The notes beneath the pieces are model-generated. The model ran no database searches. It was not told the origin of the DNA and was given only the letters and a program-made list of their open reading frames with translations. Position numbers and translations under genes: made by a program. Shown here in pieces: positions 31,018 through 45,583 of a DNA stretch of 45,747 nt. This DNA comes from a virus. The DNA lies in IMG/VR virus record IMGVR_UViG_3300047287_000089, positions 1 through 45,747 of that record. One strand, given 5' to 3'. Each line of letters opens with the position of its first letter. The first letter of the stretch is position 1.

Positions 31018-32037
31018 TCAGGAACGAGCAGACTGCAGTTCGATAGCAGCAGCAGGATTCAGGGTGCCACAACCCATGGCAAGACGACCAACAATCACGT
31101 CGCCCTGGTACATGGTACGCACATCAGAACCGGTGGTCTGCACTTGAGGACCAATGGCCTCAACCACACCAGCGGCATCCTTCTGGTAGATCAGACCGCA
31201 GTGGGTGCTGAAGTCACCAGAGTAGTTGTTGTTCTCACCGTTGACAGAAGCAACGTTACCAGCCAGGAAAGGCAGGTTGTTTGAACGCTTGATGCTGATG
31301 CCAGCGATCTCATAGAGACCATCACCAGAGTTCATCGAACCCTGAGTGTTACCGAATTCACGGTACAGGATGTTGGTATCAACCTGGCTGATCAGTGCGT
31401 AGTACTGACGAGGGGACAGCACAGCAACACGACCTTGCTTAGGCAGGTTCTTCTCATCCATGATGGAAGCAGCTTCAAAGAAGGCGTCCACGATGGCCTG
31501 AGCATCGTATTCCTTATTAGCACCAAGTTGAATGATGCTACCGCCGGGCTCAGGACCAGGAGCGGCAGTGATGGGGTGAGCTTCACGAGCAGCCTTCGCA
31601 ATAGTGCGGAAGATTTTCTTGTCGTAAGCTTCAGCCAGAGCGTGACCGATCTTAGCGGCGATCTCAGAACGCAGGCTGTAGTGGGCGAGAGTCTCATCCA
31701 GGTCATAGACAAATGCGCTGGAAACCAGCAGGTCGTCGCAGACGATGGTCTTCTCAGCCACCGGGGGATCGCCAGAACCCAGGATCGGAGTACCGGGTTC
31801 ATGGTACGAAGCCTCCATACGGCCCGTGAAAATGAACTGCATTGCCTTACCGTTCTTCAGGGTACGGCTTTGCACAGTGCCTTTTGCAATCGTTGCCGAT
31901 TCATAGGCTTTGAACATCTCGCCCGAGAACAGGCGAAGATAGGTTTGATACTTGGTATCGTAAGCAGTACCAAGAGCAAGAGGAGTGGCCGACGTATTAT
32001 TTACGCGACCTACAGGAGTAACAAGAGTGTTAGCCAC
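31018..32037 (-). CDS. Major capsid protein (T7 gp10-like)
   Basis: The 339-residue protein has a T7-type start (YQTYLRLFSGEMFKAYESATIAKGTVQSRTLKNGKAMQFIFTGRMEASYHEPGTPI), followed by VCDDLLVSSAFVYDLDETLAHYSLRSEIAAKIGHALAEAYDKKI. The late part has GRVAVLSPRQYYALISQVD and SIKRSNNLPFLAGN. This is the HK97 fold as used in T7 gp10 (345 aa). It is preceded by a long structured leader with a tRNA-like element and followed by two small proteins. No frameshift site for a second 10B-type form is obvious at its end. Confidence 0.97.
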   Translation of the reverse strand: MANTLVTPVGRVNNTSATPLALGTAYDTKYQTYLRLFSGEMFKAYESATIAKGTVQSRTLKNGKAMQFIFTGRMEASYHEPGTPILGSGDPPVAEKTIVCDDLLVSSAFVYDLDETLAHYSLRSEIAAKIGHALAEAYDKKIFRTIAKAAREAHPITAAPGPEPGGSIIQLGANKEYDAQAIVDAFFEAASIMDEKNLPKQGRVAVLSPRQYYALISQVDTNILYREFGNTQGSMNSGDGLYEIAGISIKRSNNLPFLAGNVASVNGENNNYSGDFSTHCGLIYQKDAAGVVEAIGPQVQTTGSDVRTMYQGDVIVGRLAMGCGTLNPAAAIELQSARS

Positions 32038-32068
32038 AATAGTAAAGAGAGAAGTCTGTGTTCGTTTC

Positions 32069-32086
32069 TCTCTAAGCGCTTAGAGA
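32069..32086. repeat. Perfect 18-bp palindrome in the capsid leader
   Basis: TCTCTAAGCGCTTAGAGA at 32069-32086 is fully self-complementary. It lies 32 bases before the capsid ATG (32037). A second hairpin (TGAACA-TG-TGTTCA, 32097-32110) and a third (GTCTG/CAGAC, about 32130-32145) are further upstream. These could shape the capsid mRNA 5' end or be protein-binding sites. Confidence 0.75.
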
Positions 32087-32187
32087 ATCACATGAGTGAA
32101 CATGTGTTCATTAAAGTTGTTTCTTGATGTCTGTCTCTCCAGACCGTCATGACTAAAGGTTGTCTTCCGTAGAAGGCCAATAGTCAA

Positions 32188-32258
32188 TTCTTCCATCGGG
32201 AATCGAACCCGAACTCTTCGGCATGTCGCCTATGTCCTGACCACTAGACTATGGAAGA
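32188..32258 (-). tRNA. tRNA-like element with 5-nt anticodon loop (non-canonical)
   Basis: On the minus strand 71 bases fold as a tRNA: acceptor TCTTCCA/TGGAAGA (7 bp), D-stem GTCT/GGAC around AGTGGTCA, and T-arm TCGGG-TTCGATT-CCCGA. Between D- and T-arms there are 21 bases. They fit A26, stem TAGGC/GCCGA (one A-G mismatch), a loop GACAT of 5 nt instead of 7, and a 5-nt variable region. No anticodon with U33 can be assigned and no CCA is encoded. It could be a decayed tRNA or a tRNA-shaped processing element in the capsid leader. An automatic tRNA call may give a misleading amino acid. Confidence 0.6.
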
Positions 32259-32315
32259 CACCACATTGCTGTGGATTTCAGCCCGATTAGTGTGCGTTAG
32301 CACGCACTGCGGGAA

Positions 32316-32462
32316 CTATTTCTTAGCAGTCTTTGCAGACTGTTTGAACTGTGCCGCAGTAGGAGCACCAGCAGATCCAGGCTTCCTCATCTTCTCACCA
32401 GAACCATTCTTGATGCGAAGACGTTTGGCATGGATGTTTGCATACAAGCCTTGCTTAGCCAT
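32316..32462 (-). CDS. Conserved-type basic small protein (48 aa)
   Basis: The frame begins MAKQGLYANIHAKRLRIKNG and continues with SGEKMRKPGSAGAPTAAQFKQSAKTAKK. I know this pattern (MAKQGLYANI.AKR.RI..GSGEKMRKPG..GAPT...F..SAKTAKK) from many cyanophages, from memory; the function is not established. It is Lys-rich with Gly and Ala. The ATG overlaps the stop of the preceding 57-aa gene (ATGA). Confidence 0.8.
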   Translation of the reverse strand: MAKQGLYANIHAKRLRIKNGSGEKMRKPGSAGAPTAAQFKQSAKTAKK

Positions 32463-32635
32463 CACGGCCACGCAGTACCGCCTGCTTGAACCTTGACACC
32501 CTTCGGGCTCAGTTCAGTCAGGGTTTGCGCTGCCTCACCATAAGCGCTTTGAAACGCTGGGCTGTTAGCAGTAGGAGTAACGTATTGAACTGTGACCGAA
32601 GACACCTTCGGATCAAAAGGATTAGCTCGTGCCAT
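32462..32635 (-). CDS. Small hypothetical protein (57 aa)
   Basis: I choose the ATG at 32635 (MARANPFDPKVSSVTVQYVT), 1 nt after the RlpA-like stop; the frame is open 12 codons further but only shadows that gene. The protein is Ala/Thr/Ser-rich and ends GVKVQAGGTAWP. It lies between RlpA-like protein and the 48-aa gene in the capsid operon. Function is unknown. Confidence 0.7.
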   Translation of the reverse strand: MARANPFDPKVSSVTVQYVTPTANSPAFQSAYGEAAQTLTELSPKGVKVQAGGTAWP

Positions 32636-32636
32636 T

Positions 32637-32939
32637 TTACTTAACTCTTGTAATGGTGACTTGACCAACACCTTGGCTTCTTAATCCAATTGTCTCAGCA
32701 GCAGCACGACTCAGATCGATCTCTCGTCCGTGAACAAAAGGTCCACGATCATTGATACGGACAGTGACGCACTTTTTAGTTGAGGCACTGCAGACTCGAA
32801 CCTTCGTTCCAAAAGGAAGCGACGGGTGTGCAGCAGTCATTGAATTCATGTTGTAGATCTCACCGGAGGCGGTGCGATTTCCGTGATACGGATGGCCATA
32901 CCACGAAGCAAGAGAAGCAAGAGTGAGTGTCAAATAAAG
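32637..32939 (-). CDS. RlpA-like double-psi beta-barrel protein
   Basis: From the ATG at 32939 the protein has 100 residues: a hydrophobic start (MLYLTLTLASLASWYG) and then the RlpA domain. The signature is complete: SWYGHPYHGNRTASGEIYNMNSMTAAHP, LPFGTKVRV, VTVRINDRGPF, GREIDLSRAAAETIGL and GVGQVTITRV. Bacterial RlpA cleaves naked glycan strands as a lytic transglycosylase; the Asp of NDRGP and His of the AAH box are kept. The start might act as a signal. It lies in the structural module, between scaffold and capsid, where no lysis gene is expected. Confidence 0.9.
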   Translation of the reverse strand, partial: LYLTLTLASLASWYGHPYHGNRTASGEIYNMNSMTAAHPSLPFGTKVRVCSASTKKCVTVRINDRGPFVHGREIDLSRAAAETIGLRSQGVGQVTITRVK

Positions 32940-43710: not shown

Positions 43711-45259
43711 GTTCGCTAAAGCGACAAGTGTTAAGGTCATAAGTAAGCTCACAGCAAGGGCCAACTTCACCGGTGTACCGATTCTTGAGTACTCGTACAG
43801 TTGTGTTGGAGTTGGTTTGCTGATTCCGTTCCAGTGCAATAACGGCATCACTGAGTTGTGCAATGCTGTGAGAGCCTCGTAACGAACCAAGATTCACACG
43901 AGCACCTTCCTCATGGTTTTGATCACCACTAGGACGACGTAAGTGAGAAACAAGGAACAACGAGATGCCTGTCCTTTCGACAAGGCTGCGAAGGCGTGTC
44001 ATTGTTTGATCAATGACGCGACGTTCATCACCTTCCAATCCACTCAGCAAAATACTGAGGTGATCGAGAAAGACAATCTTTACATCAAGACCTTGGGCAA
44101 GATACTCCACACGGTTATAAATAACATCGGGATCAAAACTACCGAAGCCATCAAAAAGGTAAAGCGGCCAATGTCCAAGGGTTCTGGAGTAGACATCTGT
44201 AAGTTCAGTGCGTGAGTGTTCGCCAATGTGGAATGGTTTGCCCTCAGCTACGGACATCAAGCCAAGGGCAGTTCGTCGATTTGACTCTTCAAGTGCCAGA
44301 TAACCGACTCGTTCTCCCCGACAAAGCAGATGAGTTGCGAGTTCACGACAGAATGAGGATTTTCCAATGCCAGATCCTGCAGTAATAGTGATAAGTTCTC
44401 CAGTCCTGATCCCGTGGAGCTTACGCTGTAATCCATTGTACGGGTATTCATGAATCCCTTCATCGTTAGGTTTAAGGATCTGCTCTAAGAGGTTCTTCGC
44501 TTCGACAATACCGTCTGGGCGATATGCGGAAGCGTTCCAAATTGCCTCTTTAATCGCTTGTGCCTTGCCAGCCTGGAGTGCATCGGAAGCATCCTTGAAA
44601 TCTGGCAAGTGAGCGATCTTAACCTTGCCTGGTGGCAATACCCCTGCCGCATCCTTCGCAGCCTGACGGCCTGCGTCGTCATTATCAAAGAAGAGGACAA
44701 TCTCTTCATAGCCCTGGAGCCACTCAAGCTGTTTTTGAATCGCTCGTTTGGCCGATTGGGCACCATCCGGTACTGAAACCATCGGCCAGTTCCCCGAATA
44801 AGCTTGATAACACGAAAGAGCATCGATTTCTCCTTCAGTGATGACAACTCTCTTCCCAGAACTTGGGAAGAGCTGCTGTCCAAATAGTTGTCCATCAGGG
44901 TTTGATCCTTCCCATCGGAATGTTTTGTCAGGGGTTTTGACCTTGGCACCAGTACAGCTTCCATCACGACCGAAGTAATGGAAATAGAGTTGGTTGCCAT
45001 CTCGATGAACTCGATACTTTCGGCAAGTCTCCTCGCTGATACCACGTTTTGGTAGTGGTTCTGCTTCTCCCTTAAGAGAGAATGTCATTCGTTGTTTTGG
45101 CGTTTGGACAACGTTGAATTGACCCGGTTCCCGATAGCCGCACCCAAAGCACCAGCCATGGCCGTCGTCGTAACGACCAAGATTGTCTCGACTGCCACAA
45201 GCAGGGCAAGGTTCATGAGCGATACACCTACTTGTTTCTGTATCGTGAGATGATTGCAT
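43670..45259 (-). CDS. DNA primase/helicase (T7 gp4-like)
   Basis: The 529-residue protein has a zinc-binding domain (Cys18, Cys21, Cys37, Cys40; CPACG and CFGCG), a TOPRIM domain (VITEGEIDA with Glu142; FFDNDDAG near 190) and a RecA-like helicase: Walker A TAGSGIGKSS (Lys300), Walker B-like VKIVFLDHLSIL, and the later SHLRRPSG and RGSHSIAQLSDAVIAL motifs. T7 gp4 is hexameric, makes primers and unwinds DNA at the fork. The ATG at 45259 overlaps the preceding small gene by 32 nt. The acidic tail EHEPEQEFDPTTDF ends in Phe, as does T7 gp4, where it contacts polymerase. Confidence 0.96.
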   Translation of the reverse strand: MQSSHDTETSRCIAHEPCPACGSRDNLGRYDDGHGWCFGCGYREPGQFNVVQTPKQRMTFSLKGEAEPLPKRGISEETCRKYRVHRDGNQLYFHYFGRDGSCTGAKVKTPDKTFRWEGSNPDGQLFGQQLFPSSGKRVVITEGEIDALSCYQAYSGNWPMVSVPDGAQSAKRAIQKQLEWLQGYEEIVLFFDNDDAGRQAAKDAAGVLPPGKVKIAHLPDFKDASDALQAGKAQAIKEAIWNASAYRPDGIVEAKNLLEQILKPNDEGIHEYPYNGLQRKLHGIRTGELITITAGSGIGKSSFCRELATHLLCRGERVGYLALEESNRRTALGLMSVAEGKPFHIGEHSRTELTDVYSRTLGHWPLYLFDGFGSFDPDVIYNRVEYLAQGLDVKIVFLDHLSILLSGLEGDERRVIDQTMTRLRSLVERTGISLFLVSHLRRPSGDQNHEEGARVNLGSLRGSHSIAQLSDAVIALERNQQTNSNTTVRVLKNRYTGEVGPCCELTYDLNTCRFSEHEPEQEFDPTTDF

Positions 45260-45437
45260 TAATCAGCTTTTCGTAGATGTCAGCAGAGTTCTGGAAATAC
45301 GAATGCCATTCAGTTAATGCATCAGCAAAGCAGTTGACAACTTCATCAGGTGACAACTCACCAGCCTTGATACACTCTTCTGCTTCGCACAAAGCGTCAG
45401 CGAAAAACTCAGTGATGCGCTGTTTCGGTGTAATCAT
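45228..45437 (-). CDS. Small acidic protein before primase, complete copy (69 aa)
   Basis: The frame begins MITPKQRITEFFADALCEAE and is helical and acidic, ending AIISRYRNK. It overlaps the primase start by 32 nt and the upstream stop by ATGA. The left-edge copy (1-182) differs mostly by synonymous changes (plus D/N, T/S and M/I), which shows selection on the protein. No family is recognised. Confidence 0.8.
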   Translation of the reverse strand: MITPKQRITEFFADALCEAEECIKAGELSPDEVVNCFADALTEWHSYFQNSADIYEKLINAIISRYRNK

Positions 45438-45583
45438 TGTTGGGTGTGGAAACGTTGGATCAATTCTTCATAGCTATCCAATGCATCTTCAAAGCCCTCA
45501 ACAATGTCATTCGGTGAGGAATGTTTGTCGAGTGCCATGATCAGATTGGTAGCTAGATCTTTGATCAGCTCTAGGTCAGCCAT
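45434..45583 (-). CDS. Small helical protein, second strain copy (49 aa)
   Basis: This is the same gene as 179-328. It starts MADLELIKDLATNLIMALDK; the left copy has Ile in place of the first Leu. All other base changes here are silent. Coupled to the next gene by ATGA. Confidence 0.75.
   Translation of the reverse strand: MADLELIKDLATNLIMALDKHSSPNDIVEGFEDALDSYEELIQRFHTQQ

Follow-up and report, generated by a model that had tools for sequence, protein, structure and literature searches.

The leader of the major capsid gene in the 45,747-nucleotide stretch of viral DNA analysed here (the window) carries a tRNA-like structure that is real and conserved and has no readable anticodon. Structures that resemble tRNA, in many designs, occupy the same place in the capsid leaders of many other cyanopodoviruses. 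The element is probably a non-decoding RNA that host RNase P and RNase Z cut in the manner of mascRNA, so that the capsid mRNA would start at a defined 5' end protected by a stem. An open-access literature search found no description of tRNA-like cyanophage leaders.

The tRNA-like element and its setting

The capsid protein encoded in the window shares 96% identity with its counterpart in Synechococcus phage S-SRP01. The gene, its leader and the small gene upstream all lie on the minus strand, with the tRNA-like element between the two genes as the sequence-only reading had placed it:

31018..32037, minus strand: major capsid gene, GTG start, 339 aa
32069..32086, minus strand: 18-nt perfect palindrome, TCTCTAAGCGCTTAGAGA = UCUCUAAGCGCUUAGAGA, read from the sequence, between the element and the capsid start
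32129..32187, minus strand: covarying RNA element, starting at the base after the discriminator
32188..32258, minus strand: tRNA-like structure (Rfam RF00005 at 49.4 bits, ARAGORN, fold, covariation in relatives)
32188, minus strand: discriminator A of the tRNA-like structure
32252-32258 with 32189-32195, minus strand: its acceptor
32196-32212, minus strand: its T arm
32218-32232, minus strand: its anticodon arm, with the 5-nt loop GACAU at 32223-32227
32234-32249, minus strand: its D arm
32261..32274, minus strand: small hairpin CCACAGCAAUGUGG, upstream of the tRNA-like structure at a distance of two bases
32316..32462, minus strand: upstream 48-aa gene, translated as MAKQGLYANIHAKRLRIKNGSGEKMRKPGSAGAPTAAQFKQSAKTAKK

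Homologues of the 48-aa gene also precede the capsid gene in CRP-125 and HTVC134P, and in some relatives a small hairpin of the CCACAGCAAUGUGG type is likewise found ahead of the conserved hairpin that takes the place of the tRNA (see below). On the minus strand, the 71-nt element reads UCUUCCA UA GUCU AGUGGUCA GGAC A UAGGC GACAU GCCGA AGAGU UCGGG UUCGAUU CCCGA UGGAAGA A. Its seven acceptor pairs are all perfect, the D stem has four pairs (one of them U.G), and the T arm is perfect, with the loop UUCGAUU. A GG able to dock on the T loop is present in the D loop (AGUGGUCA), and the acceptor and T stem (7+5 bp) form a 12-bp stack beneath that T loop. The discriminator is followed by UUG, and CCA is not encoded.

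The Rfam tRNA model (RF00005) scores the element at 49.4 bits (E 1.1e-7 for the window), 20 bits above the gathering cut-off of 29 bits, which places it in the tRNA family by score. The cloverleaf is also its minimum-free-energy fold (-22.7 kcal/mol, z -1.95), and it is kept when the whole leader is folded. A scan of both window strands gave two strict fold matches, namely the element and one chance match in a gene region on the other strand. The perfect 7-bp acceptor, the D and T arms and the length of 71 bases reported from the letters alone are thus borne out by sequence, Rfam model and fold.

The anticodon arm departs from this pattern. It consists of four pairs, one A.G mismatch and the 5-nt loop GACAU, as was also read at the outset, and the element therefore has no U33 and no readable anticodon; a decoding tRNA has a 7-nt anticodon loop with U33. 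ARAGORN labels the element ‘tRNA-Cys(aca)’, a label that is forced, since the loop is abnormal. Among other Rfam families, only mascRNA (weakly) and antisense plastid-ycf2 were hit, both below cut-off, and a search of GenBank phages with the 71-nt element gave no significant match. The element could derive from a tRNA. A parent was sought in prokaryote genomes through the D-arm string, which retrieved only an archaeal tRNA-Gly and no cyanobacterial parent.

Several other features of the window were noted. The palindrome, described earlier as following the element, is genuine, and its position is about 100 nt downstream rather than immediately behind it. In a survey of 273 leaders, the palindrome before the capsid start varies in sequence (AAGCGCTT, CAACGTTG, AGGATCCT, AACCGGTT, GACGTC and others) and stays perfect through its centre. 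Because a hairpin loop need not be self-complementary, this retained palindromy, as read from the sequences, suggests an intermolecular duplex (RNA dimer or kissing interaction) or a sequence-independent requirement for symmetry. No terminator-like site was found when an intrinsic terminator was sought in 31900-32700. The Syn5 promoter ATTGGGCACCCGTAA is absent from the leader, and its one 3-mismatch match elsewhere in the window is no better than chance; a repeated phage-promoter motif was likewise ruled out, the downstream motif occurring once in the window. Finally, positions 1-300 and 45256-45555 form a terminal direct repeat of at least 300 nt whose copies are 96% identical, which suggests that the genome is nearly complete and that its terminal repeats are imperfect.

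Conservation of the five-nucleotide loop

An exact 23-base piece of the element was found in 12 viral contigs, and the 22-base D-arm string retrieves ten distinct versions in all. The acceptor, D and T arms are common to all ten, and the anticodon stem differs: GGC/GCC in the window, GCG/CGC in L128 and L151, GCC/GGC in L291, and GUC/GAC in L334. The loop is GACAU or GACAA, always 5 nt, and the fourth stem position is always mismatched. Across this family, 97.4% of cells are paired, and none of 500 shuffles was as good. Double changes occur at 2/3 anticodon-stem pairs and at two acceptor pairs, counts behind which few independent events stand, the sequences being closely related. Different elements in the same slot also have 5-nt loops (AGAUA in L168, with a fully paired stem; ACAUA in L183 and L326). 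The first acceptor pair is lost in the L097 and L111 variants and likewise in the L033/L089 type, a loss that weighs against processing as a tRNA mimic.

These comparisons bear directly on the alternative that had been raised from the start, namely that the element is a decayed phage tRNA, perhaps a tRNA-Val(GAC) whose YUGACAU loop has lost two bases and which is now drifting. GACAU does read as a valine loop without positions 32-33, the stem does contain a mismatch, and relatives do hold intact tRNA-Gly and tRNA-Trp in the same slot. Simple decay is nevertheless argued against, because the 5-nt loop is kept while the stem around it changes in compensating fashion (GGC/GCC, GCG/CGC, GCC/GGC, GUC/GAC). 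Against it also stand the 5-nt loops in the other tRNA-like types (L168, L183 and L326), the T and D arms, which remain perfect across different phages, and the lack of a cyanobacterial parent with the D-arm string, only an archaeal tRNA-Gly being found. Compensatory changes, rather than the uncompensated lesions of a pseudogene, are what these related sequences contain. The covariation weakens the decay explanation, which is decidedly unlikely, and the alignment that the sequence-only reading had called for, with a constant loop and covarying stems, is that of a maintained element. That reading had also held that an ordinary 7-nt loop at this place in relatives would speak for decay or sequence error. 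Such loops occur, in the tRNA-Gly(UCC) of NATL1A-7 and the tRNA-Trp of L015, yet neither is an evident parent; as different tRNAs occupying one slot, they show exchange and not decay.

A recombinant was also observed. In L097 (6633-6760), the window's tRNA-like element precedes a capsid gene of another lineage, where the downstream element is divergent, and the recombination border is at the 3' acceptor strand.

One slot, many designs

Capsid leaders were collected by capsid homology and by pattern, with isolates added (about 380 loci, 280 of them distinct). Directly before a conserved ‘TTG’, they carry one of two structures: a hairpin whose loop is CACCUCARWGUMGGA, or one that resembles tRNA. 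Among 138 distinct capsid-selected leaders, 101 have the conserved hairpin, 29 a tRNA-like structure, and eight remain; four of these eight are truncated, and the other four are tRNA-like on inspection (L017, L284, P60 and S-SBP1). All intact leaders of this set therefore have one or the other structure in the slot. The conserved hairpin, present in most relatives (e.g., L002, S-RIP2 and S-B28), has a covarying stem and a fixed 11-nt distance to the downstream element, and it is not obviously a tRNA mimic.

The tRNA-like designs are diverse. The slot holds an ordinary tRNA-Gly(UCC) in NATL1A-7 (70.5 bits, and annotated as such), a tRNA-Trp(CCA) in L015, and elsewhere anticodon-dead tRNAs and Gly-like forms without a normal D arm. 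In L373, the acceptor and T arm are of Gly type and the anticodon arm is absent altogether. Finally, mini forms in P-SSP7, Syn5, P60 and S-TIP37 have an acceptor and a T arm with a short D-like piece, and no anticodon arm. Examples are GACUG-AUGGUGUA-GGGGAGG(UUCGAUU)CCUCCCC-CAGUC; AACUGA-UCUGGUGAUUUAU-GGGGGG(UUCGAUU)CCCCCC-U-UCAGUU in S-TIP37; GGUAG-AGCUGGUGCGCA-GCAGGG(UUCGAUU)CCCUGC-CUACC in Syn5; and GAGUA-AUCGG..CCGAU-CA-GGGAGG(UGCGAGU)CCUCCC-UACUC in P-SSP7. ARAGORN detected none of the isolates' mini forms, and the Rfam tRNA model gave no leader match in P-SSP7, Syn5, S-CBP3 and S-SRP01.

On a tree of 217 capsid proteins, the slot switches between hairpin and tRNA-like forms at least 38 times, a number inflated by recombination and weak branches; under shuffled labels the mean was 73 switches and the lowest 61. 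Exchange in the slot is frequent. By eye, no tRNA-like structure is present in the capsid leaders of T7, CRP-125, BB8, HTVC019P and HTVC134P, all from outside the cyanophages (T7, roseophage, Bordetella phage and pelagiphage leaders), or in that of P-SCSP1a, which suggests that tRNA-like capsid leaders characterize the main group of cyanopodoviruses. The earlier attribution of the feature to this one phage was thus too narrow; it is a leader property across cyanopodoviruses.

That these are ordinary decoding phage tRNA genes, with the odd variants as side products, is scarcely credible: the NATL1A-7 tRNA-Gly(UCC), with its 70.5 bits and its annotation, fits such an account, and against it stand the window element, which lacks a decodable loop, and the mini forms of P-SSP7, Syn5, S-TIP37 and P60, which lack an anticodon arm and escape ARAGORN. 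Decoding may, in addition, be selected in those leaders with an intact tRNA-Gly.

Translational operators that mimic tRNA are known, as in thrS of E. coli. It is conceivable, though highly unlikely, that the leader structures act in a similar manner, recruiting a tRNA-binding host or phage protein (a synthetase, EF-Tu, the CCA enzyme or a scaffold protein) to control capsid translation with no cutting. The tRNA-Gly-like versions retain both features that a synthetase would need, the UCC anticodon and U73; elsewhere the anticodon and discriminator differ or are missing, so that no single synthetase could read all versions, and some 150 nt separate the element from the start codon downstream.

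Other structures were seen in and around these leaders. In P60 (L400), the tRNA-like structure overlaps the last scaffold codons (GCUAG.. of AKLARSGDLL*), so that protein and RNA share sequence. In L014, L015, L016, L033 and L089, a further structured module, GCCTAAGC..TATGTCCTGATGAGGCATA..GCTTAGGC, lies upstream of the tRNA-like slot; its stems covary (GGCCAGCC/GGCTGGTC; TACG/CGTA), and it has no Rfam match. Mini tRNA-like structures also occur before psbA, at about 1912 (plus strand) in L395 and about 2032 (minus strand) in L384, each with a hairpin directly after it (GGAC..GTCC, GGAG..CTCC) and, in L395, a 13-nt distance to TTGG. A general feature of psbA leaders was rejected, a T arm lying next to psbA in two among the 71 distinct leaders listed (108 found).

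Constant spacing and elbow

Between the T loop and the TTG there is a distance of 13 nt in 98/123 tRNA-like leaders and of 14 nt in 23/123, with the proviso that the collecting pattern permitted 11-14 nt, so that part of the set was preselected in this respect, the isolates and capsid-selected leaders not. In a real tRNA, the T loop is separated from the maturation end by 12 bp plus the discriminator, compared with the 13-14 nt found here. The partition of the helix varies (7+5, 6+6, 5+7 or 5+6), with 40 combinations of acceptor and T stem. The hairpin class keeps a distance of 11 nt in 142/147 cases, with stems of 5-10 bp.

A strict test for tRNA-like structure was passed by 26/128 full capsid-selected leaders versus 0/2560 dinucleotide shuffles. 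When 5.75 million bases were scanned on both strands, 75/97 distinct strict matches fell in the collected capsid leaders, and inspection of the remainder yielded about ten more capsid-leader copies (mainly from isolates) and two before psbA. Of 120 strict matches, 118 have a GG no further than 14 nt into the linker, a count that includes the stem GGs of forms with a UGC T loop. Judged by eye, the automatic GG test being too strict, nearly all UUC T loops are accompanied by a D-loop GG (L326 is an exception), and UGC T loops have a small hairpin in place of the D-loop GG.

The constancy of these parts also bears on the suggestion that the slot holds a structural insulator or 5' roadblock, in which any stable fold would stop upstream mispairing or exonucleases with no specific cleavage. 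The non-tRNA hairpin in most relatives accords with this, as does an alternative centroid fold in the window that pairs the 5' half of the tRNA with the downstream element. A mere stable fold, however, needs no T loop, no D-loop GG and no constant 13-nt distance, and even in the hairpin class the loop is conserved and the distance is a constant 11 nt (142/147) despite stems of 5-10 bp. An insulator is accordingly an unlikely explanation. The centroid pairing itself was taken as chance, since by eye it is not kept in L031/L036, relatives whose downstream element differs in sequence.

The downstream element

Directly after the discriminator begins a second RNA element, made up of an outer stem (UGACUA/UAGUCA), GG/CC pairs, a hairpin with a UACG tetraloop, and then the hairpin GUCUG-GAGAGA-CAGAC. 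In the fold of the window leader, the outer stem begins one base after the discriminator. Across 34 distinct leaders, 98.5% of cells are paired, with 46 double-change cells, and none of 500 shuffles was as good; UACG is the usual loop among relatives. There was no Rfam match at E<=1. A core of roughly TTGGCC-hairpin-GACAACC also occurs in BB8 (L415), CRP-125 (L414), HTVC019P (L418), HTVC134P (L419) and P-SCSP1a (L417), i.e., in Autographiviridae of Bordetella, roseobacters and SAR11 and in P-SCSP1a, where the tRNA-like part is absent. Judging by sequence, this core looks like an undescribed and widespread RNA motif of capsid leaders.

Proposed processing of the capsid message

In its anatomy, the window element resembles a mascRNA-type processing signal, and a cut is predicted. 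Host tRNA-maturation enzymes would recognize the elbow, in which the T loop docks on the GG of the D loop, together with the 12-bp stack of acceptor and T stem. Cleavage by RNase P would fall at the 5' side of the element (32258/32259), and that by RNase Z after the discriminator (32188/32187). Freed in this manner, the capsid mRNA would begin UUGACUA..., with one unpaired base followed by the conserved, covarying stem-loop. Bacterial mRNAs with a stem close to their 5' end resist 5'-dependent decay, and such a stem-capped end could confer resistance to 5'-end-dependent decay by RNase E, with a possible effect on mRNA stability or translation. The anticodon arm would need only to fold, leaving its loop free of decoding constraint.

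The assignment to these two enzymes is favored because the parts that are kept, namely the T loop, the D-loop GG, the 12-bp stack and the CCA-less trailer, are those that guide the finding and measuring of tRNAs. The idea of a processing signal, put forward from the sequence alone, is therefore strengthened by comparison: the loop is kept while its stem covaries, and tens of designs preserve only the parts read by RNase P and RNase Z. More tentatively, and with somewhat less confidence than for the window element, cyanopodoviruses as a group may cut their capsid mRNA with the host tRNA-maturation machinery, with tRNAs, anticodon-dead tRNAs, mini-tRNAs and the CACCUCARWGUMGGA hairpin as interchangeable devices that yield the same stem-capped 5' end; whatever RNA presented an elbow and a 12-bp stack would then suffice, the hairpin being a fourth, non-tRNA kind of signal. 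If the hairpin and tRNA-like forms are equivalent, their shared function could be one other than cleavage, such as that of an insulator or a protein site.

P-SSP7 and Syn5 are model marine phages, and the capsid message is a major late product, with leader RNAs that are unannotated. Should this cutting take place, a lytic phage would be employing host tRNA-maturation enzymes for mRNA processing, and the natural designs, which range from a full tRNA down to a bare minihelix, would reveal the in vivo requirements of RNase P and RNase Z. Cutting would also matter for the question of how the messages of the phage persist when infection increases host RNase E. In infected Prochlorococcus MED4, expression of host RNase E goes up, and phage transcripts are thought to be protected by antisense RNAs (PMC9692554), making protection of phage messages plausible.

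Comparison with known systems

A parallel in position is the NATL1A-7 tRNA-Gly(UCC), which shares the slot, the 13-nt distance and the downstream element, and differs in its intact 7-nt anticodon loop with U33, with which it could decode. In tRNA punctuation, tRNAs between genes serve as cutting marks, both in mitochondria and in bacterial tRNA-mRNA operons. Those tRNAs decode, whereas many of the cyanophage slot forms cannot, and some have no anticodon arm.

Viral RNA also mimics tRNA in the 3' tRNA-like structures of plant viruses. These have a pseudoknotted acceptor, lie at the 3' end of the genome and are charged with amino acids, and in all of this the cyanophage leader elements are unlike them. 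RNase P can cut the structure of TYMV (PMC11143913). It also cuts mRNAs and phage RNAs, including the M3 RNA of phi80 and the C4 antisense RNA of P1/P7 (PMC11143913); the likeness lies in phage RNA as a substrate of host RNase P, the cut being only predicted here. M3 and C4 are small RNAs of other phages, whereas the present element lies in a capsid mRNA leader and keeps the geometry for RNase Z as well.

The strongest likeness in anatomy is to mascRNA and menRNA, at the 3' ends of MALAT1 and MEN-beta (RF01684), which have an acceptor, a T arm, an elbow formed by two D-loop guanines and the T loop, and a compact anticodon loop (PMC11693755). The compact anticodon arm of mascRNA is non-decoding, RNase P and RNase Z cut by way of the elbow, and neither mascRNA nor menRNA is aminoacylated (PMC11693755). 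There is no sign of common descent, the mascRNA model scoring the phage element at 17.4, below its cut-off of 42.5. The animal elements form the 3' end of a nuclear long RNA, whereas the phage element would set the 5' end of an mRNA. Finally, unlike mascRNA and menRNA, the phage slot is a single place shared by several unrelated designs.
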